DNA of 55,614 nucleotides. It comes from Nitrospira japonica. GTDB lineage: Bacteria > Nitrospirota > Thermodesulfovibrionia > UBA6902. Positions within the stretch are counted from its first letter, which is position 1, and each line of letters begins with the position of its first letter. The notes under the pieces were generated by a model, which made no database searches, was not told the DNA's origin, and saw only the letters and a program-made list of their open reading frames with translations. Both the position numbers and the translations under genes were made by a program. The stretch covers positions 1 to 55,614 of the forward strand of contig DYJL01000019.1 in assembly GCA_020723105.1 (NCBI GenBank), in the 5' to 3' direction. Of the stretch, positions 17,192-55,216 are shown in pieces.

Positions 17192-17956
17192 ATGATAAAA
17201 GCAGGAATCATAGGCGGCTCAGGACTTGATAATCCTGACATTCTCAAAAATGCTAAAGAAATCGCAGTAAAGACACCTTATGGCTCACCAACATCATCGC
17301 TTACTTGCGGAACGATTGAAGGAACCGATGTAGTTATCATTGCCCGACACGGAAAAGACCATTCCATTTATCCGTCAAAAGTGAATTTCAGGGCGAATAT
17401 CTGGGCCTTGAAAGAACAGGGCTGCACACATATCCTTGCATCAACTGCCGTGGGCTCTCTCCGGGAGGAAATCGCCCCCGGGCACCTCGTATTTCCCAAC
17501 CAGTTTATAGATCATACAAGGAAAAGGGAAACTACCTTTTTTGACGAAAATGTTGTTGTACATACACCTATGGCAGAGCCCTTTTGTCAAAACCTCACTG
17601 ATTTACTTGCCTCGTCCGCAGGAGAGTTGAATTTAACCTTTCATAAAAATAAAACTGTTATTACGATAGAAGGGCCGCGTTTTTCAACAAAGGCGGAGAG
17701 CCATATGTTCAGAAGCTGGAACGCTGATGTTATAAATATGAGTACGGTTCCTGAAGTAGTGCTTGCCAGAGAGAAAAAGATGCATTATGCAGCAATAGCA
17801 ATGTCCACAGATTATGACTGCTGGCATGAAGAAGAAGAGCCTGTAACGTGGGAAATGATTCTGAATACCATGAAGGAAAATGCAGACAATGTAATAAGGC
17901 TGTTTTTAAATGTCATTCCGAAGATAAAAAAATATAATGATATCTGTATAACATAA
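17192..17956 (+). CDS. mtnP: S-methyl-5'-thioadenosine phosphorylase (MTAP/PNP family)
   Basis: It splits 5'-methylthioadenosine with phosphate to adenine and methylthioribose-1-phosphate. The 254-residue protein has the N-terminal IGGSGL phosphate loop and the RHGKDHSIYPSKVNFRAN block. It continues with TAVGSLREEIAPG, TIEGPRFSTKAESHMFR and NMSTVPEVVLARE. The MSTDYDCW segment is the MTAP-type base-site signature, not a guanosine-specific one. A strong ribosome binding site (AAGGAGAG) precedes it. The adenine phosphoribosyltransferase gene follows after 19 nt, so the adenine released can be recycled to AMP at once. Confidence 0.92.
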   Translation: MIKAGIIGGSGLDNPDILKNAKEIAVKTPYGSPTSSLTCGTIEGTDVVIIARHGKDHSIYPSKVNFRANIWALKEQGCTHILASTAVGSLREEIAPGHLVFPNQFIDHTRKRETTFFDENVVVHTPMAEPFCQNLTDLLASSAGELNLTFHKNKTVITIEGPRFSTKAESHMFRSWNADVINMSTVPEVVLAREKKMHYAAIAMSTDYDCWHEEEEPVTWEMILNTMKENADNVIRLFLNVIPKIKKYNDICIT

Positions 17957-17975
17957 AGATTGAAAGGAGAAAACC

Positions 17976-18509
17976 ATGCCTATCAAATCAAAAATACGCA
18001 CCATTCCCGACCATCCCAAAAAAGGAATCATGTTCAGGGACATAACTACATTGATTAAAGATCCCGTAGGATTCAGGCTCGTAATTGATACTTTTACCCA
18101 AAGATATATTAAAGGCGATATCAATTACGATCTTATTGTTGGCATAGAGGCCAGGGGTTTTATTATTGGAGGCGCATTGTCTTACACGCTCGGCAAGGGG
18201 TTTGTGCCAATCAGGAAAGTTGGCAAGCTTCCGGCAGAGGTAGTAAGGCACGAATATCAGCTTGAGTATGGTACAGATACAGTAGAAATCCATAAGGATG
18301 CAATAACACAAGGGGCCAGGGTTCTTGTTGTTGACGATCTGCTTGCTACAGGCGGTACCGCGCTTGCGGCAGCAACGCTTATTGAAAAGCTTGGCGGCGC
18401 TGTTGCAGAAATGGCATTTATCGTCAACCTTCCAGATGTAGGCGGAGAGAAAAAGTTAAAAGAAAAAGGGTATAAGGTTTACTGTCTTACTGAGTTTGAA
18501 GGAGATTAA
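17976..18509 (+). CDS. apt: adenine phosphoribosyltransferase
   Basis: It converts adenine and PRPP into AMP. At 177 residues it is normal length. The N-terminus KSKIRTIPDHPKKGIMFRDI is typical of Apt, GIEARGFIIGGALSYTLG follows, and the PRPP-binding loop is VLVVDDLLATGGTA. GGAG precedes the start. It lies between the MTA phosphorylase and DUF1015 genes with short spacing, consistent with one operon. Confidence 0.95.
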   Translation: MPIKSKIRTIPDHPKKGIMFRDITTLIKDPVGFRLVIDTFTQRYIKGDINYDLIVGIEARGFIIGGALSYTLGKGFVPIRKVGKLPAEVVRHEYQLEYGTDTVEIHKDAITQGARVLVVDDLLATGGTALAAATLIEKLGGAVAEMAFIVNLPDVGGEKKLKEKGYKVYCLTEFEGD

Positions 18510-32483: not shown

Positions 32484-32588
32484 ATGTTTATTATTTCCTC
32501 TTTCTGTATCTATCAAGTTTTTAGAGTTTGTTTCCGTTTAATATACAAAGAGAGATTTGTCATTTTATTTGAAAGGCTTGGAGTGTAA
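32484..32588 (+). CDS. possible 34-residue upstream peptide before the radical SAM-ArsM gene
   Basis: An ATG at 32484 opens a frame of 34 codons that ends TAA one base before the ATG of the next gene. The peptide (starts MFIISSFCIYQVF, ends LFERLGV) has two cysteines and is hydrophobic and basic. No clear ribosome binding site precedes it. It could be a leader peptide coupled to the enzyme, a peptide substrate for the PqqD-like domain, or chance in AT-rich DNA. Confidence 0.3.
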   Translation: MFIISSFCIYQVFRVCFRLIYKERFVILFERLGV

Positions 32589-32589
32589 A

Positions 32590-35010
32590 ATGGCTCAAGG
32601 TTGTTGCGAGGCAGACAGAGAAGCAAGAATCAAGAAATACAGTCTGGATTACTGGAAGGTTACAAATCCTAACCTTAGAACTTTCCGGCCCCATGACACT
32701 TTATTTACACCGGAATACATTAAAAAACAGAAAGGCGGAATAGCCCTCTTTATTGACCCTAAACTGCCTAACTGGATTAGTGTTAATGATACCGGCGCAG
32801 AAATTATCAGACTTTGTAACGGCAAAAACACTGTAGCTGAAATACAGGAAGCTATTTGTAAAAAATACAATATATCCGGACCCAACAGAGAACAGGTAAA
32901 GCGGGAAGTTTCCGAATTTCTCAGTGCAGCAGGGTTGCTGGAATTTATCTCTAATTCAAAGATTGAACGACCTGAATATACAGGCAGAAGCAAGGCCCTG
33001 GCCCCATATAAACTTGATGAATTGTGGTTGTATTACACCCTTGCCTGTAATCTCAGATGCAAGCACTGTCTTGTCAGCGCCGGGAAAGGGTTAAAAAAAG
33101 AATTAACAACTGACGAATTTAAAAAAGTCATAGATGAAGGGATTAAGCTGGGGGTAAAACGGTTTTATATTACCGGCGGGGAGCCTTTCATAAAAGAAGG
33201 GATTTTCGAGCTTATACGATATATTACAAAGATAAAGAAACGCGAACTCATTATACTTACAAATGCTACTCTTTTTGATGATAACAAAATAGCCAGGCTT
33301 AAAAAAATAATGAGCCCCAAACTCCTCCTGCAAGTCAGTCTTGAAGGGCCGAATGCAAAGATCCATGATAAACTCCGCGGCAAGGGAAGTTTTGATGCAG
33401 CGGTAAACGGCATTAAAAAACTGGTAAGCATTGGCATAGTACCCATAATTTCCACAGCAATAAATAAATGCAATGAGCAGGAGATTTTAAAGACCTCCCG
33501 CTATCTGTCAAAGCTCGGGATTAAAGAACACAACATCCTCTGGATGCATACAAAGGGCCGCGGGGCGCAGCATCTCAACGAGCTGTTTGTTCCTTCGGAC
33601 AGTGTCGCCCGGACCATGCGGAAACTTAAGAAGTCCTATAAAGAACAGGAAGTTATTTTAGATAATATTGAGTCCCTGAAGGTGCGCATACGTACCAAAA
33701 GAGGGAGGAAAAACGATCTGTGCAACAATTGTTATGAAAAAGTTTGCGTGAACGCAGACGGGCATGTCTATCCTTGCGGCTCTCTCAATGGAGACCCGCA
33801 TTTTGATGCAGGTTCCGTAAGAAAGAAATCTTTAAAGGATATCTGGTTAAATTCAAAAGTCATGAAAAGAGGCCGGGACAACAGCGTTCAGAATAAGCCT
33901 GAATGCAGAAACTGCTATCTCGAATATTTTTGCGGCGGAGGATGTACCTCCCACAGTTTCTACGCAAGTGAGGTTGAAACCGGCAAGGGTTCAATAACCG
34001 CAACAGACCCTTATTGTTCAACATATAAAGCGCTTTTTGAAGATATTATCTGGGAGCTGGCTTCTGAAGGCGTTCCTTCACAAGAAGGAAAAGGCTATTT
34101 CACACCTCTTGTTTATAATGCAATGGATTCAAAGCTTCCTTCTCATCTTGGCGCCGGTATCAAATCAGTTGATAAAAAATTTGATGTAGGCTGCTATCAT
34201 TGCTCCTGTGTGCTGTCTGTTGACGTTGAAGATGACGAAGAAGTTTGCAAACCTGAAATAAAAGGCCATGTCACTAAAACCGTCAAGAAAAAATTTTCAA
34301 AAGCAGCATATGCGCCGGTGGCTGATTATTACTGCCCTACCGGTTATGATCCAAAAGAACTGAAACACATTCCCAATGAAGTGCTGGAAGTTTCTTACGG
34401 ATGCGGAAATCCGGCAGCCCTTGCAGATATAAAAGAAGGTGAGACTATTGTGGACCTGGGAGCAGGCGGAGGCATTGACTGCTTCATTGCTGCCAAAAAA
34501 CTGGGCCGGAAAGGGAAAGTAATCGGCATAGACATGACCGATGAGATGGTGGAAAAGGCCACAATAAATGCCGAAAAAGTTGCAAAAGTTCTTGGCTACA
34601 ATGTTGTTGAATTCCGAAAAGGAAACATCATGGAGCTCCCCGTTGAAAGCAATTCTGTGGACCTTGTCATATCCAATTGTGTAATTAATTTAACAGAGGA
34701 CAAGACAAAGGTCCTTGATGAAATCTTCAGGATTTTAAAGCCTGGCGGAAGGTTTATTATCTCTGACATTGTTTCTGACAAGCCGGTGCCCGGCTACCTG
34801 AAAAGGGACAAAGAACTGTGGAATGCCTGCCTGTCAGGCGCACTCACAGACAAGAGGTTTAAAGAAGCAGCAGAGAATGCCGGATTCCCCGACGTTCAAT
34901 TGACAAAGAATTATCTCTATAAAAAAGTAGAGTTTATAGAATTTTATTCTGTAACCATGAAGGCCCTGAAACCCCAAAAAGTTGCGTGCGGGTGTATGGC
35001 CTGTGGTTAA
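32590..35010 (+). CDS. PqqD-like/radical SAM-SPASM/ArsM-like methyltransferase fusion
   Basis: 806 residues from the ATG at 32590 (GGAG upstream). The N-terminus has vicinal cysteines (QGCCEAD). Residues about 50-115 form a PqqD-like peptide-recognition domain. The radical SAM core follows with C153, C157 and C160 (CNLRCKHC) and the TGGEPF strand, then a SPASM region (CNNCYEKVC, CGS, CRNCYLEYFCGGGC). A Cys-rich link has C535xxC538xC540. From about 560 the protein is ArsM-like: YYCPTGYDP, YGCGNP (C605), DLGAGGG, SNCVINL (C697) and ACLSGAL (C747). These are the three cysteines that hold arsenite in ArsM. It ends CGCMACG. Known parts are each clear; the fusion's product is unknown. It is followed by a cobalamin radical SAM gene. 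Confidence 0.88.
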   Translation: MAQGCCEADREARIKKYSLDYWKVTNPNLRTFRPHDTLFTPEYIKKQKGGIALFIDPKLPNWISVNDTGAEIIRLCNGKNTVAEIQEAICKKYNISGPNREQVKREVSEFLSAAGLLEFISNSKIERPEYTGRSKALAPYKLDELWLYYTLACNLRCKHCLVSAGKGLKKELTTDEFKKVIDEGIKLGVKRFYITGGEPFIKEGIFELIRYITKIKKRELIILTNATLFDDNKIARLKKIMSPKLLLQVSLEGPNAKIHDKLRGKGSFDAAVNGIKKLVSIGIVPIISTAINKCNEQEILKTSRYLSKLGIKEHNILWMHTKGRGAQHLNELFVPSDSVARTMRKLKKSYKEQEVILDNIESLKVRIRTKRGRKNDLCNNCYEKVCVNADGHVYPCGSLNGDPHFDAGSVRKKSLKDIWLNSKVMKRGRDNSVQNKPECRNCYLEYFCGGGCTSHSFYASEVETGKGSITATDPYCSTYKALFEDIIWELASEGVPSQEGKGYFTPLVYNAMDSKLPSHLGAGIKSVDKKFDVGCYHCSCVLSVDVEDDEEVCKPEIKGHVTKTVKKKFSKAAYAPVADYYCPTGYDPKELKHIPNEVLEVSYGCGNPAALADIKEGETIVDLGAGGGIDCFIAAKKLGRKGKVIGIDMTDEMVEKATINAEKVAKVLGYNVVEFRKGNIMELPVESNSVDLVISNCVINLTEDKTKVLDEIFRILKPGGRFIISDIVSDKPVPGYLKRDKELWNACLSGALTDKRFKEAAENAGFPDVQLTKNYLYKKVEFIEFYSVTMKALKPQKVACGCMACG

Positions 35011-35041
35011 AAAATATGACCAAGAAAAGGGGAAGGGAACT

Positions 35042-36526
35042 ATGAGAGTCACTTTAGTAAATGCACAGGTATTAGACGGCAATAACGTTGTTCCGCCTTT
35101 AGGGCTTATGTATATTGCCGCTGTTTTGGAAAAGGCAGGGCATGCCGTCCAGATTTATGATTCAGATCCCGAATACCAGGCCAGCATGATAAAAGAGATA
35201 AAGGATTTCAATCCTGATTTAATAGGTCTCAGCTTCTTAACGGTCGGTTACCAGAGGGCGTTGCACCTTATGCAAAACCTGAAAAAGGAACTGCCAAATA
35301 AAATATTCTGCTCCGGCGGCGTTCATACAACTGTCAAACCCAAAGAAACCCTGGAAGAGTTTGGTGTTGACTTCATCGTAATTGGAGAAGGCGAAGACAC
35401 CATTGTTGAAGTGTGTCAGAAGCTGGGAAACAATGAAAGCCTTGCTGGCGTAAAGGGTGTGATGTACCGTGATAACGGCACTATTACAGATAATGGCAGG
35501 CGTGACATGATACAGGATCTTGATACTATCCCATTCCCTGCACGACATCTGATAGATATGACTCCATATCTCAAGCCGCCTGGAATTATAAGGGGTTATG
35601 CAACCAAAAACCAGACAACCATTGTTACAAGCAGGGGCTGTCCCTTCAAATGCATATATTGCGGCAGCCACAATATTTTTGGCAGAAAGACCCGAAGGCG
35701 TTCGGTCAAAAATGTTGTGGATGAGATAGAGCATCTCCACAAGAATTATGATATCAAAGGTGTATATTACTGTGATGATACATTCACACTGAGTCCCAAG
35801 TGGGTAAAAGAATATTGTGAGGAGCTAAAGCGGAGAAATCTGAATATCAAATGGGGATGCCAATCAAGGGTAGACCAGACGGATATGGAATTAATGAAAA
35901 TGATGAAGGCTTCGGGTTTAGTCCAGCTTGATTTCGGCGTTGAAAGCGGCTCCGAGAAGATCCTCAGGGTGCTCGGCAAAGGCGGCGCCGGAGACCGGAC
36001 AGCTCAGATTAAACATTCCTTCAAGCTTTGCAAAGATCTTGACATCAGAACACTGGCTACTTTTATCATCGGAAACCCTGAAGAGACCAAAGAAGATATA
36101 GAACAGAGTTTTCAGGTAGCAAAAGATATTAATGCCGATTATACAGCCTTTTATTTCCTGACGCCTTATCCGGGAACAGATATTTATGATATGGCTATTA
36201 AAAACGGCTGGCTCGACCCTAATCTCCCGTTTTCAGAGATATGGGCGCACAGGCAGCCTGAACTGCCTCTTATGGCAATAACATTTCAAAAAGAAGAGCT
36301 TCGGGACATTCGCAGAAAACTGCAGAACGCCTTCTTCATGAAAAACTATTTCACGCGCAAGAGCAACATAAGCTTTTATTCCATTCTGTTCAGTATCCTG
36401 TTTAAGCATCCCAAGGTCTTTCTTGATGCCATTGGTAAATTGATAAGAACTCGCAGAATTGATTATATTGTCGAGACCCTCAATGCTGAATACTGGCGAA
36501 TGAAAAAATATGAAGGTCTCGGATAA
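35042..36526 (+). CDS. cobalamin-binding-domain radical SAM protein (class B)
   Basis: 494 residues from the ATG at 35042, preceded by GGGAAGGG. The N-terminal half (1-140) is a B12-binding Rossmann domain (PPLGLMYIAAVLEKAGHAV). The DxHxxG histidine motif is not evident, as in many BchE-like members. The radical SAM cysteines are C200, C204, C207 (RGCPFKCIYC). YYCDDTFT, VESGSEKIL and TLATFIIGNPEET mark the rest of the barrel. Such enzymes methylate unactivated carbon or phosphorus or make ring closures. The gene starts 31 nt after the fusion gene, so they probably share a transcript and pathway. Confidence 0.9.
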   Translation: MRVTLVNAQVLDGNNVVPPLGLMYIAAVLEKAGHAVQIYDSDPEYQASMIKEIKDFNPDLIGLSFLTVGYQRALHLMQNLKKELPNKIFCSGGVHTTVKPKETLEEFGVDFIVIGEGEDTIVEVCQKLGNNESLAGVKGVMYRDNGTITDNGRRDMIQDLDTIPFPARHLIDMTPYLKPPGIIRGYATKNQTTIVTSRGCPFKCIYCGSHNIFGRKTRRRSVKNVVDEIEHLHKNYDIKGVYYCDDTFTLSPKWVKEYCEELKRRNLNIKWGCQSRVDQTDMELMKMMKASGLVQLDFGVESGSEKILRVLGKGGAGDRTAQIKHSFKLCKDLDIRTLATFIIGNPEETKEDIEQSFQVAKDINADYTAFYFLTPYPGTDIYDMAIKNGWLDPNLPFSEIWAHRQPELPLMAITFQKEELRDIRRKLQNAFFMKNYFTRKSNISFYSILFSILFKHPKVFLDAIGKLIRTRRIDYIVETLNAEYWRMKKYEGLG

Positions 36527-48046: not shown

Positions 48047-51000
48047 TCAATCCCCCTCGCTCTCCCGTCCCATGCGGTATTTGATGTCGTAGTTGATGAT
48101 GAAGTCCAGCTCCTCGTCCGTGAAACCGTAGTGCTTCGCCAGCATGCGGTCGATTTCGTCGATGATGGGTTTGGAATTCTTTGGAATAATACACTGGACT
48201 GTCAGAGTATCATGCTTATATCGCATTGTACGAGTCTCTGACTTTCGATTTAAATCATTTGAAAGACGAGAAGCGAGATTACCGATCTCAGGAAAATCTT
48301 CAACAACTTTTTGCGGATCAAATCTAATATTATCTACTTCGCGTCGATTAACATGGCTGCCGTCTGATACAACATCCATAAACCATCTATAGAGAGTACT
48401 ATTAAAACAGCAGAATACCGCATCTGCCACTTTCTTAGAAGAAAAAGACATTTTTTTGAATTCAGACGGCGGGCGGAGGTGCCCTTTGCCATCTCGAACC
48501 TCTGGCACAAAGTTAAGTATTTGCAGGAAGGCGTTAACCTTGCGAGAATAGTAAGTTATAAAAGACGAGTCCTCAACATAAAATGTTGATAGAGGCTTAT
48601 CTCTATGAAATATCTTATTCCATATGCCTTCCTCAATGGGAGAACCTATTTTTGGCCAACACCCCTTAAGTTCCGGGGTGGGAGTACGGGTATACTTAAG
48701 AAGTGGAAATAAATTGGTCCTTTCCTCGGCACTCCATCTACTAAGGCGCGTGGAGTGCCCAGTGAATTGGCTGACCTTACGTGCTAATAGTAAAATTGAC
48801 AAGGTATTCTTGTCCAGTCCATCAAAAAGATGGGAGGGTCTATCATCAAATGAGCTAAATGCAATTTCTCGATGTCTAAGTGTTTCCTGTAGCTCTAAAT
48901 ATCCTTCGGTTGCAACCGATGACACTGGAACAATAAAACCTTGTCTCGATTTATCGGAAACGAGAGATTGACACCTCTCAAGAATCAAAGAATAGAGATT
49001 TCTTGTTTTGCTTGTTTTATAGCCCTTAATCATGTATTCCTTGAGATCCTTAAAATCAACATACGGTGGATTCCCAATAATCACATCAAATCCGCCGTTC
49101 TTGAGAATCCCATAGAACTCAATGAACCAATGAAACGGTTGGTGGGATTTGCGCCATTTTTCATGGGCTGTCTTTTTACGTGGATCAATCCCATATTCAC
49201 CTGCGAGATATTGATTCAGTTCATCTTCCAGCGACTTCAAACGATCTCTTAATTCCTGCTTGTCTTCCGGGGTGACCTGGCCGCCTAATTCCGTCTGCTG
49301 TTGATGGAAGATTTTAAACAGGCGGTCGACGTCCTCTGCCTGTTCTTCAATCCTCCCCATGTTGTTTTCAAAGTCCAGCTTGCTTGTGACAACCTGCTTT
49401 ACTTCATCGTATGTCGCAAAGCCGACAAGGGTATTGCCTGCGCGGATATTGAAATCAATATCGGGCAACGGCTCGATACCTTCAGCGCTGTCAATCTGGG
49501 CCACGAGTTTGAGGAACAGGCGGAGCTTGCAGATTTCAACGGCCTCTTCCATGATGTCGACGCCGTACAGATTATTGACGATTATTGATTTGTAGATAAA
49601 GTATTTGAGATTGGGATGTTCGGCAACACGATTCAATATCTTTTTGAAATCCCCGTATTTGTCGGAGCGGTGTTTCTTTTGTAGGGGCGCACCTGTGTGT
49701 GTGCCCTTGCCTGCATCGTTATCGGGGCAGACACGCAGGTCTGCCCCTACATTTATTTCCAGCTCATCAAGAAAAACCTGCATCCGTTCAAGACATCCCT
49801 CATACAACGGCTCAAGGACGTTCAACGCGGCAAAGAGAAACGCGCCTGAACCACAGGTAGGATCGAGAACGGTCACATTTTCTATCGCATGATAAAACGC
49901 CCTCAGGAGCTCAGGCCCTTCTGAGTTATAAATCACATCCTGGGCAAACTGACGGATATCGAGATTATAGGTGATAAGGTCATTGATTGACCGGACTTCA
50001 CCGCTAAGCATTTTGGTTTTAACTTCCTCATATCTTTGCCGTCTCGCAACAACTTCTCTCCATATCTCAGTCGGCAAGGCATATTCCGGTGAAGCGGGCT
50101 TGTTCCAGCCGGTACGCTTTGAGACATCAATAATGCCTGATTCAATTTCAGCAGGCAACGGCAGATCGACACCTTTTCTTACTGCTGAATAAATATAACG
50201 GTCAGGGTCGCTTTGCAGCAATTGCCAAATCGTCGAACTGGGTGAAGGGCTATTCGCCCCCACAAAGGCAATTTTACATTTCTCTTTGGCGGCATCAAAA
50301 AGAAAGGGAATAACCGTGTTCTTGCTTATATATTCTGTAATGTCTTCTTTGGTGTAATACGCCCCCATCTGTTTCTGGTTGATGTATTTTTCAAAGATAT
50401 AGCCGAGCACATCAGGATTGATCTCGTTGTCTTTCCGGAGAGGTCTTTCATCAAGATGCCACTGGTATAGATCAAAGAAGTCAAAGAGCTTTTCAAAGGC
50501 CTTATCGGATATCTCAATATGCCTGCCGTGAAGCTCTTCTATCTGATGTTTCAGGAACAAACCGCCGTTCAGGTATGGGATATCGCCGAGAAGCTTGTTG
50601 ATTGACGCGGAACGCTCACTCGCCTTCATCGCAAAACCATCAAAAAACAACGGGCAGAGGAGTTTCTTGTAGAAGAGGTCTTTTCCCTGTTCCCTGCTTT
50701 GGACCAGTTTGTTTCTCAGGTAGTCGTCATCACCGGCAAGAAATCTCTTTTTCTGAATAAAGTAAATGAACATGAGCCGGTTAAGCATGACTGATGCATA
50801 CCACCTGTGAAGCTCGTCATCGGGAATACCTTCAATGAATTCAAGGAATGAATCGTGCTCGTTTTTAAAGCGGTCGTAAAACTTCTTCGTGACCTTCTCA
50901 ACATCGAAGGCCGTCCGGGCTTTCCCGGTAACGTCAATAATGGTTATAGTCTCTTCTTCATCAAGCGTGACCGCCAAATTCCGGATTTTCTGTATCAGGG

Positions 51001-51379
51001 AATCGCCCGGCTGATTGACGTGATATGCATGTTCACGGCAGGCAGTCGGCTTGCCCGCTTCACGCTTTACCCATTGCCATATCTGAGTAGTCTTTGCGTG
51101 ATCGGAGTAGATGATTATGTGTTCATGAACGGACTTTGCGATTTGCCTCTCTATCTTGCGCCTGACAGCATAATCAGGGATATTGCCATTGCTTAGAGGC
51201 CCGCACAAAAAAGCCGCCATCCCCCGCTTCTCCGCCACTGCATTTAAGTTAAACTCGTGACCGTCTACAGATACTTCTTGACTGTTACCGTAATGGTCCC
51301 AGCCAAGCTCTTCTGTAAAGATATTCCTGAAGTCGAATTCCTGAAGAAGATTGCGGACTCGTGTGATGTCAAGGTTCAT
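48047..51379 (-). CDS. Eco57I-type/PglX-like N6-adenine DNA methyltransferase
   Basis: 1110 residues. A long N-terminal region contains YIFEKYINQKQMGAYYTKED near 345, the hallmark of COG1002 enzymes. The SAM motif LDPTCGSGAFL is near 503 and the catalytic NPPY (VIIGNPPYVDF) near 767. The C-terminal third likely recognises the target DNA. Type IIG enzymes of this build can cut as well as methylate, but no clear PD-ExK motif is visible to me; a methylation-only role beside the helicase is possible. Residues about 544-567 come from a REP-like insertion. It is downstream of a truncated dinD and the SNF2 helicase gene. Confidence 0.88.
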   Translation of the reverse strand: MNLDITRVRNLLQEFDFRNIFTEELGWDHYGNSQEVSVDGHEFNLNAVAEKRGMAAFLCGPLSNGNIPDYAVRRKIERQIAKSVHEHIIIYSDHAKTTQIWQWVKREAGKPTACREHAYHVNQPGDSLIQKIRNLAVTLDEEETITIIDVTGKARTAFDVEKVTKKFYDRFKNEHDSFLEFIEGIPDDELHRWYASVMLNRLMFIYFIQKKRFLAGDDDYLRNKLVQSREQGKDLFYKKLLCPLFFDGFAMKASERSASINKLLGDIPYLNGGLFLKHQIEELHGRHIEISDKAFEKLFDFFDLYQWHLDERPLRKDNEINPDVLGYIFEKYINQKQMGAYYTKEDITEYISKNTVIPFLFDAAKEKCKIAFVGANSPSPSSTIWQLLQSDPDRYIYSAVRKGVDLPLPAEIESGIIDVSKRTGWNKPASPEYALPTEIWREVVARRQRYEEVKTKMLSGEVRSINDLITYNLDIRQFAQDVIYNSEGPELLRAFYHAIENVTVLDPTCGSGAFLFAALNVLEPLYEGCLERMQVFLDELEINVGADLRVCPDNDAGKGTHTGAPLQKKHRSDKYGDFKKILNRVAEHPNLKYFIYKSIIVNNLYGVDIMEEAVEICKLRLFLKLVAQIDSAEGIEPLPDIDFNIRAGNTLVGFATYDEVKQVVTSKLDFENNMGRIEEQAEDVDRLFKIFHQQQTELGGQVTPEDKQELRDRLKSLEDELNQYLAGEYGIDPRKKTAHEKWRKSHQPFHWFIEFYGILKNGGFDVIIGNPPYVDFKDLKEYMIKGYKTSKTRNLYSLILERCQSLVSDKSRQGFIVPVSSVATEGYLELQETLRHREIAFSSFDDRPSHLFDGLDKNTLSILLLARKVSQFTGHSTRLSRWSAEERTNLFPLLKYTRTPTPELKGCWPKIGSPIEEGIWNKIFHRDKPLSTFYVEDSSFITYYSRKVNAFLQILNFVPEVRDGKGHLRPPSEFKKMSFSSKKVADAVFCCFNSTLYRWFMDVVSDGSHVNRREVDNIRFDPQKVVEDFPEIGNLASRLSNDLNRKSETRTMRYKHDTLTVQCIIPKNSKPIIDEIDRMLAKHYGFTDEELDFIINYDIKYRMGRESEGD
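49681..49750. repeat. 70-bp REP-like element inside the methylase gene
   Basis: The element begins GTAGGGGCGCACC and ends GCAGGTCTGCCCCTAC. It has the same ends as the element at 14156. It is in frame and adds about 23 residues (GADLRVCPDNDAGKGTHTGA and a few more) without breaking the gene. Position is between SAM motif I and the catalytic NPPY. Confidence 0.85.
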
Positions 51380-51423
51380 GAGTTGTCTCTTCAGAAGGCC
51401 CGATTAATCCCTTTGCGTCCTTC

Positions 51424-51669
51424 TCAGCTTCCACCTTTCCCTCCCTCGATCGGTTTGCCGGCGCCGGCAAAGTGATATGAAGGTTCGTTCCCTGATTGTT
51501 TACAGGAAGTTACAGCTCTGCTAATAGCATCTTCAAAGCGCCTCCATTGGCTGTATCCCAAAAGAGGCTGAAGCTCCCGCGCGCTCCAATATTCTGCGCC
51601 GTGTTCGTTGACTTTCTTTAAATCTTCAAAAGACTTATTCCCTATCGCTGCCAAATCTTTTTTTGCCAT
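51424..51669 (-). pseudogene. truncated dinD (BRO-N domain) fragment
   Basis: 81 residues from the ATG at 51669 (GGAGGGG upstream). They match the start of DNA damage-inducible protein D: NEHGAEYWSARELQPLLGYS, FEDAISRAV and FAGAGKPIEGGKG. DinD is normally about 270-290 residues; here a stop comes right after GGKG, 45 nt before the methylase start. The gene is therefore cut short, although the product might still fold as a BRO-N module. Confidence 0.75.
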
Positions 51670-51725
51670 ATCCCCTCCATTTTTTTGCATATTAATAAAG
51701 TATCATTCAAGCTATTCATTAATTT

Positions 51726-51776
51726 TATGTAACGTTAAGCCGGTTTTGTTACATATGTCAATTTATATGTAACGTT
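51726..51776. promoter_or_regulatory. TATGTAACGTT repeats upstream of dinD'-methylase
   Basis: TATGTAACGTT occurs at 51726-51736 and 51766-51776, exactly 40 bp apart, with an inverted GTTACATA at 51748-51755 between them. This layout in a short AT-rich gap between helicase and dinD' suggests an operator for a dimeric regulator. The protein that binds is unknown. Confidence 0.55.
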
Positions 51777-54700
51777 CAAGGCGATTTCTTTAATAAGCCC
51801 ATTGAACAAATTATCCTCGGCTCCTGGATTTGCTCCTCCTCATGAATGACACAAAGCCGCCCTTCGTTACGCAAAGTAATGACGATCTGTGCAAGGGTCT
51901 CGTCGGAGATGCCGCTCCTTAACTGCCGGTTGAGTGTGTCTATGGCTGTTTGTCTGAGGGGATAACGATATATCTCATCAATTGCCTTCAGAAGTTCCTG
52001 CGATTCAAAGAGGGTCCCTTTAATTTCCTCTGCATATCTCTTGAGTCTTTCATAAGCGCGGAAGCGTGCGCCTGATGGTCTTCCCAATTGTCCGCCGACG
52101 GATTTTTCCTCTTCAATTATCAGCTCAACCCCTTTTTGCACCAGCTCATGATGGTTGTCGGCACGGGGAATCGCAGGAGTTTCGGGCAAACATTCCGCCG
52201 TCTTTAATATTTCATATTGAGACTCGGTAACCCCCTTGCCATCCTTATCAATCCATGCCAATGCGTCATTGCCTTCTGCTGTTTTTAGATAAATGAGCAC
52301 GCCTTCGGGACACACCCCTGCACCCCTCTCAAGAGGGGACGGATTCAATTCCCCTCTAAGAAGAGGGGTTAGGGATGTGTTAATTGCCTTTGTCGAATAA
52401 ACAACCTGCGGTAAAGACGGTATGATCCTTTGTAATTCAGGATTTGCAGTTATAGCATTCTTCCAGATTTGGTATGCATAGGAGGAAAGGTCCACCTCCC
52501 CATCAACGTCGCCATCAAGAATGCCTGATTTTTCATTATAAAGGTCAAGAATAATTTGATCATTACAGTCATCTTCAAAAAATGCCTCATCTGTCCCTAC
52601 AACCTCTGCATTTTGCCGGAGTCTCAGCCGGACGCGCTCCCGCAACTTAATAATACGATTTACTCCTTCGGCAGGAAGAAAAGAGTAACATAAAATGTTT
52701 TCTGCCTTTTGTCCTATACGATCCACACGGCCTGCCCGCTGTATCAATCTTATAATGGCCCAGGGCAGATCAAAGTTCACTATTATGGAGCAGTCCTGAA
52801 GGTTCTGTCCTTCACTGAGGACGTCCGTTGCAATGAGAACACGCAATTCTTCTTCGGGTCTTATCTTATCTCGCTTTTCATTGCTTTCCGGACTGAACCG
52901 CCACGCTATTTCGGTTGGATCATCTGAATCGCCGGTCACTCCTGCGATACTTGTTATACCCCTTTTCATAAGTTCAAATTCAAGGTAGCGAACAGTGTCT
53001 GCAAATTGACTGAAAACGATTACTTTATCACCAAGATGCTTTTTTGCAAGCAAGTTAATCAGCGCATCTAATTTGGCGTCTTTATCTGAGTTCCATTCAC
53101 CACACTTATGCAGGACTTTTAATAAAGAGTTAATGTCATACCGCAAGTCATTGGCTAAATCGTTAAGGAAAAGTGTGGGGCGGAGCCATTTGAAACGACT
53201 TCTGTACTGAGTTTCATATTCTTTATATACTTCAGCTGCCCTGCGCTTAAAATCATCCTCTGCCCGTAATTGTTTTCTTGCGCCCTCTATTGAGCCATTG
53301 CCATTATCATCTTCAAACATATTGGCAGTTACGCTAACATCATCAGCATCTTCATCATTTATGCGGGCATCCAGCATTCCAGAATCCTGTGTGCCGATAG
53401 GAAGCAGTTTTTCATTTTCAATTGCGTATAAAAAAATATAATTACGGAGAATATGGCGTTCAATGGATTGCATGAAGGCCTTCCCTCCGCTTTCAAGACG
53501 TTTAAATATGTTGGTACGGCAGAATCCCATGAGCCGTTTACCGGCGCGTGAGAGGTCCTGAAGGATTCTGGCGTCATTTTGAGTCGGTGGTTCGTGAGGA
53601 GTTTCCACAATATAATTACCAAGACCATATCTCGGCAGATTGAGCCCATTGACTGTATCTACTACATCTGAAGCATAAAGTCGCGCATATTGATCGTCCG
53701 GATTTTTGTCATCAATTTTAAATCTGATTGTCTTAGGCTGTCGAACCGGGAAATAAGAGAGGCTCCCATCTTCAAAGGTCAGGAATTTGCGGCCCGTGGC
53801 GGCATCGGTCCCAGCATAGTTGTCCTGGATAAAACTCCGTGTGCGTCTGACCATGTAGAGACGCACGAGGTCGCGCCAATCATCGGCGTAGTCGCTTTTT
53901 TCAAATGCAGAGAGTGAACGGACAGGGCACTGATGTCTGCGTATGAATTCCGTCTCGCCTAATTCACGGAGCAGTTTTTCAGGCCGAATACCTAAATCCT
54001 TATCCTCTGGGACAAATAGACGAAGCTGGTTGGAAAGATCACGATAGGTCTTGTTATAAGGCGTTGCTGAAAGCAGGATGCATTTGCTCTCATTCTCCTG
54101 TACGTATTCATGAATCGCCTGATACCGTTTGCCCTCACGATTTCTGAGATTATGACTTTCATCTATGAGGACCAACCGGTATCTGCGCAAGTCCGGCAGC
54201 TCATTTATTGCACGAGTGACTGATAAAACCTTTGCCCGCATACGATAGTTGTAAACATAATCCTCCCACATCTTAACAAGATTTTTCGGGCATATTATCA
54301 ATGTCTCCAAGCCGAAGTCATCTTCAAAGATGCGTGCAACGGCGGTCGCCATGAGAGTCTTGCCCAATCCGACTACATCTCCGATTAAAACACCGCCTCT
54401 TTTGTTGAGATGATGCGCTGCGATTTTTACTGCTGCTGTCTGGAATTCAAAAAGTTTCCGTCCAAAGTCTCTGGGTATCCGAAACTGAAGAAGCCCACCG
54501 CGCGCTTCTTCTGCAAGATGATATGCCATCTTTACATAGATATAATACGGCGGTATTAATTCTTCACGCGCCCAGCTCTCTTCAATTATGCTCACTAATT
54601 CATCAGATATATCCATACACCATTTGTCATTCCACCTGTCTTCAAACCATTGCGCCAGCTTCTGACAGGCATCATGGTCCAGGACGTCAATATTTAATTC

Positions 54701-55216
54701 TCCCTGCTTTGAAAGCCCGGCAAATGTAAGGTTACTGCTGCCCAGGTAGCCGATTGTCGGATTGATAGGGTCAGGCCGAAAGAGGAGATATAGCTTTGCA
54801 TGTAATTGATGTCTGAGGAATAATTTGACAACGACCTTCTTGGCCTTGATTTGCGCTGCGAGTCTGCGGAGGCCGGCTTCATCTTCATTAGTCGGGATGC
54901 CGAGGGTCAATTGATTGCGGAATTCTTCAGCTAATTTCTTTTTTATACGAAGTGCTGTTTGCTGATCAATTCCCTTATCCGATTTGACAAGACTCAATGC
55001 GGATATGAGCTCTTCCTGCGGAAGTTTCTGCATTCCGACGAGAAGGCGGCAGCAATTGCCCTTGCCGCCGGACCAGTTCTCTATGTATGAATCGAGCTGT
55101 TTCCATCCCCGAAGATTGAAATATCCCACACAGAAGTCGGCGCGATCAGCAACATGAAGGGTCTCTTGTAATGCGGGAAGCAGCGATTTTTCTATGTTGT
55201 CAAAAATCCTTGGCAT
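51776..55216 (-). CDS. PLD-like nuclease domain/SNF2 helicase
   Basis: 1146 residues. The N-terminus (to about 180) is a phospholipase-D-type domain with an HKD-like motif, H139 and K141 in HAKLYLLF and GSSNLTF following. The Swi2/Snf2 motor comes next: Walker A GDVVGLGKT near 280, LIDESHN near 351, LLSATPYN, and motif VI QRAGRVDRIGQ. The C-terminal part is charged. Such PLD-SNF2 proteins occur beside adenine methylases in anti-phage islands (for example DISARM-like sets). No drmA/drmB genes are present. Residues about 946-969 are encoded by an in-frame repeat. It is the first gene of the minus-strand island. Confidence 0.9.
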   Translation of the reverse strand: MPRIFDNIEKSLLPALQETLHVADRADFCVGYFNLRGWKQLDSYIENWSGGKGNCCRLLVGMQKLPQEELISALSLVKSDKGIDQQTALRIKKKLAEEFRNQLTLGIPTNEDEAGLRRLAAQIKAKKVVVKLFLRHQLHAKLYLLFRPDPINPTIGYLGSSNLTFAGLSKQGELNIDVLDHDACQKLAQWFEDRWNDKWCMDISDELVSIIEESWAREELIPPYYIYVKMAYHLAEEARGGLLQFRIPRDFGRKLFEFQTAAVKIAAHHLNKRGGVLIGDVVGLGKTLMATAVARIFEDDFGLETLIICPKNLVKMWEDYVYNYRMRAKVLSVTRAINELPDLRRYRLVLIDESHNLRNREGKRYQAIHEYVQENESKCILLSATPYNKTYRDLSNQLRLFVPEDKDLGIRPEKLLRELGETEFIRRHQCPVRSLSAFEKSDYADDWRDLVRLYMVRRTRSFIQDNYAGTDAATGRKFLTFEDGSLSYFPVRQPKTIRFKIDDKNPDDQYARLYASDVVDTVNGLNLPRYGLGNYIVETPHEPPTQNDARILQDLSRAGKRLMGFCRTNIFKRLESGGKAFMQSIERHILRNYIFLYAIENEKLLPIGTQDSGMLDARINDEDADDVSVTANMFEDDNGNGSIEGARKQLRAEDDFKRRAAEVYKEYETQYRSRFKWLRPTLFLNDLANDLRYDINSLLKVLHKCGEWNSDKDAKLDALINLLAKKHLGDKVIVFSQFADTVRYLEFELMKRGITSIAGVTGDSDDPTEIAWRFSPESNEKRDKIRPEEELRVLIATDVLSEGQNLQDCSIIVNFDLPWAIIRLIQRAGRVDRIGQKAENILCYSFLPAEGVNRIIKLRERVRLRLRQNAEVVGTDEAFFEDDCNDQIILDLYNEKSGILDGDVDGEVDLSSYAYQIWKNAITANPELQRIIPSLPQVVYSTKAINTSLTPLLRGELNPSPLERGAGVCPEGVLIYLKTAEGNDALAWIDKDGKGVTESQYEILKTAECLPETPAIPRADNHHELVQKGVELIIEEEKSVGGQLGRPSGARFRAYERLKRYAEEIKGTLFESQELLKAIDEIYRYPLRQTAIDTLNRQLRSGISDETLAQIVITLRNEGRLCVIHEEEQIQEPRIICSMGLLKKSP
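52311..52380. repeat. 70-bp inverted repeat inside the SNF2 helicase gene
   Basis: The ends ACACCCCTGCACCCCTCTC and AGAGGGGTTAGGGATGTGT are inverted near-copies, with a CTCTC/GAGGGG hairpin inside. The element is in frame and adds about 23 residues (SLTPLLRGELNPSPLERGAG and neighbours). It is C-terminal to helicase motif VI, so the motor is intact. Confidence 0.8.

Follow-up and report, generated by a model that had tools for sequence, protein, structure and literature searches.

What could a protein do that joins in one chain a PqqD-like domain, a radical S-adenosylmethionine (SAM) core, a SPASM domain and a methyltransferase resembling the arsenite methyltransferase ArsM, and whose gene is followed by that of a cobalamin (B12) radical SAM enzyme? 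Such a gene pair lies in a 55,614-nt stretch of DNA on contig C48 of the 3.13 Mb Nitrospirota genome G000; this whole stretch is called the window. The named near relatives of the genome are metagenome-assembled genomes of Nitrospiraceae/Thermodesulfovibrionia. It is fairly likely that the fusion acts as a bifunctional organoarsenical synthase, a one-chain counterpart of ArsM plus ArsS that would be their non-orthologous replacement. What is proposed here about its substrate, about both reactions and which of them comes first, and about the task of the B12 enzyme draws on sequence and gene context.

The fusion gene and its cobalamin partner

The gene pair has the following parts.

32590..35010, + strand: fusion gene, PqqD-like / radical SAM / SPASM / ArsM-type methyltransferase, 806 aa (Pfam and NCBI models; 22 genomes of the order carry orthologues)
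32755..32925, + strand: PqqD-like domain, a winged helix of the RiPP recognition element (RRE) type, residues 56-112 (PF05402)
33034..33501, + strand: radical SAM core, residues 149-304 (PF04055, 92 bits, E 5e-26)
33721..34017, + strand: SPASM domain (PF13186, 38.7 bits against a cut-off of 21.5)
34318..34926, + strand: ArsM-type methyltransferase core, residues 577-779 (NF008823; best PDB matches 5evj, 6cx6 and 4fr0, in sequence and fold)
35042..36526, + strand: B12-binding radical SAM protein, 494 aa, open reading frame 2 (ORF2; PF02310 and PF04055, both above cut-off)
35639..35662, + strand: CxxxCxxC motif of the B12 enzyme, C200/C204/C207, invariant in the B12-protein alignment

The initial annotation had described the four-part chain and a B12-type radical SAM gene 31 nt downstream of it, and this observation is real. 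All four parts match Pfam models above their cut-offs, and the key cysteines are present. The PqqD match (41.5-46 bits against a cut-off of 23.4) is the only one in the whole genome, and the Methyltransf_31 match (122 bits) also lies above its curated Pfam cut-off. On the arsenite methyltransferase model NF008823, the fusion scores 257-260 bits (256.9 and 259.7), narrowly below the cut-off of 263. The core shares its fold and all four functional cysteines with CrArsM (5evj) and CmArsM (4fr0), with 34-38% identity over the core; it differs in sitting behind a radical SAM/SPASM module. The ArsM-like domain had been called complete, but the window clade has the methyltransferase core only, and the C-terminal ArsM domain is missing there while it is present in distant fusions. 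In a Foldseek search with the fusion's AlphaFold model (pLDDT 84), the methyltransferase part matched ArsM structures (5evj best; also 6cx6 and 4fr0), and the N-terminal half matched the SPASM peptide maturases SkfB (6efn), SuiB (5v1q) and 5wgg as well as ChlB and sactipeptide-maturase folds. Neither the fusion nor the B12 protein reached any NCBIfam model at its cut-off, and the literature search found no paper describing this PqqD/radical SAM/SPASM/ArsM layout. A TTG at 32557 is a possible alternative start of the fusion; homologues begin at the ATG (M-A/S-x-x-CC). In one genome of the same genus, the fusion gene (G268:C5:23175-25591) is broken near residue 375 into two frames that overlap, which reflects either a frameshift or a real form with two proteins.

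Are the two genes inherited together? Of the 396 Nitrospirota genomes, 22 have a window-type fusion (64-88% identity), all of them in one order, and B12 orthologues (77-96% identity) were found in exactly these 22. The two genes are adjacent at every locus where the contig permits the check, and the flanking genes vary. Since 22 genomes of the order carry the pair at 65-96% identity, it is not a product of chance; in the window's order, the fusion and the B12 gene are an inherited unit. Below these orthologues, the next-best level for the B12 gene is 38-40% (G124, G014 and G374), besides one 66% paralogue in G312.

The B12 protein has the same two domains as BchE/HpnJ/AprD4-type enzymes, whose families cyclise, rearrange or deoxygenate, but it falls below every equivalog cut-off (BchE, 218.6 bits against 481; HpnJ, 203 against 578; P-methyltransferase, 157 against 575); BchE and HpnJ are its best-scoring models. 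Its best PDB sequence match is AprD4 (6fd2), and its close kin in the phylum sample are the fusion partners and the G312 paralogue only. The clusters that house the 38-40% relatives also contain glycosyltransferase genes and further radical SAM genes. Owing to this kinship and to these clusters, a sugar-tailoring role of the B12 enzyme seems as likely as methylation. A predicted structure of the B12 protein was set aside for its low confidence (pLDDT 58.7 from a 10-row alignment). No fusion accompanies the G312 paralogue (L184:4136-10877, on G312:C1); its neighbours encode a large membrane protein, a class-III aminotransferase and a further radical SAM enzyme. This cluster possibly represents a related pathway without arsenic.

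The cysteines were scored on an alignment of 35 proteins, namely 20 window-type and 15 distant fusions, the latter from a group of other lineages at 36-40% identity, and the roles of the ArsM cysteines were assigned by homology to solved ArsM structures.

32602..32607, + strand: vicinal Cys5-Cys6 at the N-terminus, both kept in 20/20 window-type proteins
33046..33069, + strand: CxxxCxxC [4Fe-4S]/SAM motif, C153-C157-C160, invariant in the 35-protein alignment bar one unread residue
34207..34209, + strand: C540, linker cysteine where the radical SAM module ends, 35/35 and invariant in a 43-row alignment
34333..34335, + strand: C582 of the ArsM part, 35/35
34402..34404, + strand: C605 of the ArsM part, 35/35
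34678..34680, + strand: C697 of the ArsM part, 35/35
34828..34830, + strand: C747 of the ArsM part, 34/35
34987..35007, + strand: CGCMACG tail at the C-terminus; most window-type proteins have a Cys-containing tail, and distant fusions end in CC

C582, C605, C697 and C747 align with C44 (the N-terminal Cys of ArsM), C72, C174 and C224 in CmArsM numbering. C540 is kept even in L150, a protein with the radical SAM module but without the methyltransferase. The SPASM motif of the window protein is complete (C381-X9-G-X4-C396 / C439-X2-C442-X5-C448-X3-C452 / C476). Its auxiliary-cluster cysteines are complete in 20/20 window-type proteins but degenerate and mostly lost in the distant groups. Cys-rich termini (an N-terminal CC; a C-terminal CC or CGCMACG) are common among the fusions. 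Selenocysteine was considered for some fusion matches and rejected, as their in-frame TGA codons seem to lie at the ends of reading frames, judging from the coordinates of one case.

Distant relatives and arsenosugar genes

Is the fusion confined to this order? Fusions with 30-43% identity were found in about a dozen phyla. They occur in anammox planctomycetes, other Nitrospirota, Acidobacteriota, Elusimicrobiota, Omnitrophota and Gemmatimonadota, and also in Wallbacteria, Latescibacterota, Nitrospinota, Chloroflexota and Desulfobulbaceae, and lack the B12 gene. Thus, it is only in the window's order that the fusion always comes with the B12 enzyme. The expected co-occurrence of the two genes held in 22/22 window-type genomes and failed in the other lineages. 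A joint loss of the B12 gene and the ArsM cysteines had been named as fatal to the organoarsenical proposal; only the B12 gene is lost, and the cysteines are conserved. Far-group fusions (L131, L139, L146 and other Desulfobulbaceae loci) reach about 1050 aa with a C-terminal extension; the one at L139 belongs to Desulfurivibrio sp. AMeS2. This extension matches NF045648, the metal-binding double selenoprotein MbdU (134 bits in L146).

In the radical SAM tree, the window type groups with proteins that have the radical SAM module only (89/83), apart from the mid-group (36-41% identity) and far-group fusions. In the methyltransferase tree, the window-type ArsM core groups with stand-alone ArsM (95/97). 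These trees favour two independent fusion events behind the family, while a single origin was not rejected by the approximately unbiased test (p-AU 0.094).

The neighbours of the distant fusions include TIGR04283 (226 bits, cut-off 182) and TIGR04282 (197 bits, cut-off 134), the glycosyltransferases named for arsenosugars, together with a MerA-like reductase, a VTT membrane protein, DUF547, a Pit transporter and a family 2 glycosyltransferase (GT2). With duplicates removed, a TIGR04282 gene lies 1-5 kb from the family gene in 17 of the 78 loci, against 0.3 expected. Pit-type phosphate transporters, which can also import arsenate, are found beside 20/52 mid-group fusions (e.g. L086:2565-3692 and L087:10759-11883). 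The anammox planctomycete fusions (L085-L089) lie beside DUF547 or GT2, with an extracytoplasmic function (ECF) sigma factor in L087 and L089; the literature search seemingly found no report of arsenolipid chemistry in anammox cells.

The linkage also reaches the window type itself. In L048 and L080, from another family of the order, a window-type fusion terminates an unbroken same-strand run headed by TIGR04282. The order in L048 is TIGR04282 (201.6 bits, cut-off 134), GT2, a 323-aa protein, a tetratricopeptide repeat (TPR) protein, a 698-aa membrane protein, GT2, the fusion and the B12 gene; the L080 contig stops within the fusion, and the B12 gene after it is visible in L048 only. The first GT2 of these runs is 46% identical to a Scalindua GT2, and the membrane protein of the L048 run is 51% identical to the one beside the G312 B12 paralogue. 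On the 3.2 Mb chromosome of G312, a TIGR04283-TIGR04282 pair lies 15 kb from the fusion.

Does the family follow the arsenosugar genes across genomes? In Nitrospirota, TIGR04282 is present in 22/22 window-type, 13/15 mid-group and 4/5 radical-SAM-only genomes. Among ArsS-negative Nitrospirota, it occurs in 29/32 genomes with the family and 23/147 without it (Fisher p 5e-16), and ArsS is found in none of the 20 genomes with mid-group fusions (15) or the radical SAM module only (5) (p 7e-8); both p-values ignore shared ancestry, which is the first of several points that weigh against an ArsM-plus-ArsS counterpart. An ArsS-model protein occurs in 10/22 window-type genomes, so the replacement of ArsS is clean in the mid and radical-SAM-only groups only. 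In the window genome, TIGR04282 is on a contig other than that of the fusion, and TIGR04283 was found below cut-off only. The NCBI "arsenosugar" name of both families rests on genome context and is not known to rest on an assay. Finally, a role of the SPASM clusters as an electron sink would not be general, since the distant groups have degenerate SPASM cysteines. In a wider set, TIGR04282 is present in 33/34 fusion genomes and 1/14 controls, and ArsS lies above cut-off in 3/30 fusion genomes. The window genome lacks an ArsS above cut-off; it has a single TIGR04282, and its separate ArsM lies on contig C88. In 6/18 window-type genomes, no further ArsM was found at E<=1e-30.

Other products, substrates and roles

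The co-occurrence of ArsS in 10/22 window-type genomes, together with their B12 partner, also speaks for the best-surviving alternative, in which the enzyme makes an organoarsenical other than an arsenosugar, through a different carbon-arsenic bond (e.g. 3-amino-3-carboxypropyl as in ArsL, or a lipid or alkyl carbon). The SPASM half is not an ArsS homologue beyond the radical SAM core, as the fusion scores 70 bits against the ArsS model TIGR04167 (cut-off 300) and matches the first half of the model only. However, the clustering with arsenosugar glycosyltransferases and the lack of ArsS in the mid-fusion genomes suggest the same intermediate, and this alternative is unlikely. The ArsQML arsinothricin cluster likewise combines ArsM with a radical SAM enzyme for a C-As natural product, but its radical SAM families and gene layout are different, and the window has no ArsL (ORF2 scores 65 bits against NF040542, cut-off 450).

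Could the same cysteines bind another thiophilic element (Se, Sb, Te or Hg), as the initial annotation allowed? MerA-like genes are among the neighbours, and ArsM-type domains are also found in selenoproteins. The linkage to arsenosugar-named genes and to Pit (phosphate/arsenate) transporters and the close match to solved arsenite methyltransferases make this improbable.

It is very unlikely that the fusion matures a ribosomally synthesized and post-translationally modified peptide (RiPP), with a leader bound by the PqqD-like domain, a thioether or C-C link made by SPASM and methyl groups added to the peptide by the methyltransferase. The N-terminal half does have the architecture and fold of PqqD/SPASM peptide maturases such as SkfB and SuiB, its PqqD domain is above cut-off, and the sactipeptide maturase StsB is among the better model matches. 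Nevertheless, the ArsM domain is appended, the arsenic-binding cysteines are kept and the neighbours are arsenosugar genes. No short ORF for a precursor peptide was conserved family-wide beside the fusions in a limited search of upstream stretches; small upstream ORFs resemble each other in close relatives only and are probably parts of neighbouring genes or intergenic DNA.

Just as doubtful is a detoxifying role, in which an ArsM acts on arsenic and its added radical SAM domain contributes to no biosynthesis: ArsM homology and ACR3 in most genomes of the order speak for it, but a separate ArsM lies near acr3, away from the fusion, in many of them (e.g. G268:C28, G378:C17 and G158:C41), and the radical SAM module also stands alone beside TIGR04282/TIGR04283 (L068 and L150). 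Genomes of the L068 type have their separate ArsM on a different contig (L071, L192 and L193).

Some other genes were noted.

17192..18509, + strand: purine nucleoside phosphorylase (PNP)/methylthioadenosine (MTA)-phosphorylase-like gene (17192, PF01048) and adenine-phosphoribosyltransferase-like (APT-like) gene (17976), a tentative partner pair

This MTA-phosphorylase-like gene, a second paralogue, is present in 16/18 fusion genomes and 1/4 without a fusion, which is a small sample, and in three genomes (G000, G312 and G332) its distance from the fusion is about 15 kb or less. The link of this pair to the fusion is a weak hint. In about eight genomes of the family (L036-L043 and L050), a GAF/sigma-54 activator gene lies divergently upstream of the fusion. 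A sigma-54 promoter ahead of the fusion/B12 pair was therefore looked for, and no credible -24/-12 site was found. On the minus strand of the window, 48047-55216 holds genes for an Eco57I-type restriction-modification methylase and an SNF2-family helicase, perhaps a defence island.

Proposed chemistry and meaning

The system was classed as an organoarsenical biosynthesis variant distinct from ArsS and ArsL. The organoarsenical route first proposed for the pair gains from the arsenosugar-gene linkage, the replacement of ArsS in the mid group and the kept cysteines, but the system as found across phyla does not include the B12 enzyme. Since relatives in about a dozen phyla are often beside arsenosugar genes, the family probably makes carbon-arsenic compounds in a way not described before.

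How might a bifunctional synthase work? The ArsM core would hold As(III) on C605/C697/C747 (with C582) and methylate it with SAM. Next, the PqqD/radical SAM/SPASM module would attach another carbon to the arsenic. The likeliest such group is 5'-deoxyadenosyl, transferred as a radical onto the trivalent methylarsenical. C540 may serve as an arsenic ligand, and the SPASM clusters of the window clade might accept the surplus electron. An analogy for the radical step is ArsS, which adenosylates arsenic by radical SAM chemistry (PMC12159101), and C-As bond formation in arsinothricin is a precedent (PMC12159101). The TIGR04282/TIGR04283 glycosyltransferases, elsewhere in the genome and adjacent in relatives, may process the arsenic nucleoside, possibly together with the MTA-phosphorylase-like enzyme, which could release adenine. 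In the window's order, the always co-encoded cobalamin radical SAM enzyme may tailor the product by C-methylation or by sugar deoxygenation or rearrangement. As in the ArsM plus ArsS arsenosugar pathway (TIGR04167, NF038099, TIGR04282 and TIGR04283), an As(III) methyltransferase would be coupled with a radical SAM enzyme, and the same accessory glycosyltransferase genes are near the fusion or in the genome. In contrast, the fusion would have both activities in one chain, its radical SAM half is of the PqqD plus SPASM type, and the window clade has its obligate B12 partner.

Few enzymes are known for C-As bonds beyond methylation; PMC12159101 names those of the radical SAM type that act in arsenosugar and arsinothricin synthesis. 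It is quite possible, though put forward tentatively, that the PqqD-SPASM radical SAM/ArsM enzyme, perhaps fused twice, constitutes a second widespread arsenosugar-type route, and that in one Nitrospirota order a B12 radical SAM enzyme turns it towards a new class of organoarsenicals. If true, this would be a third, non-homologous C-As-forming enzyme, present in about a dozen phyla, and would provide a one-chain model coupling polar methylation with radical chemistry. It would also offer a marker gene for organoarsenical synthesis in metagenomes and extend such synthesis to deep-subsurface and nitrogen-cycle bacteria, and the obligate cobalamin radical SAM partner hints at an arsenic metabolite so far not sought.

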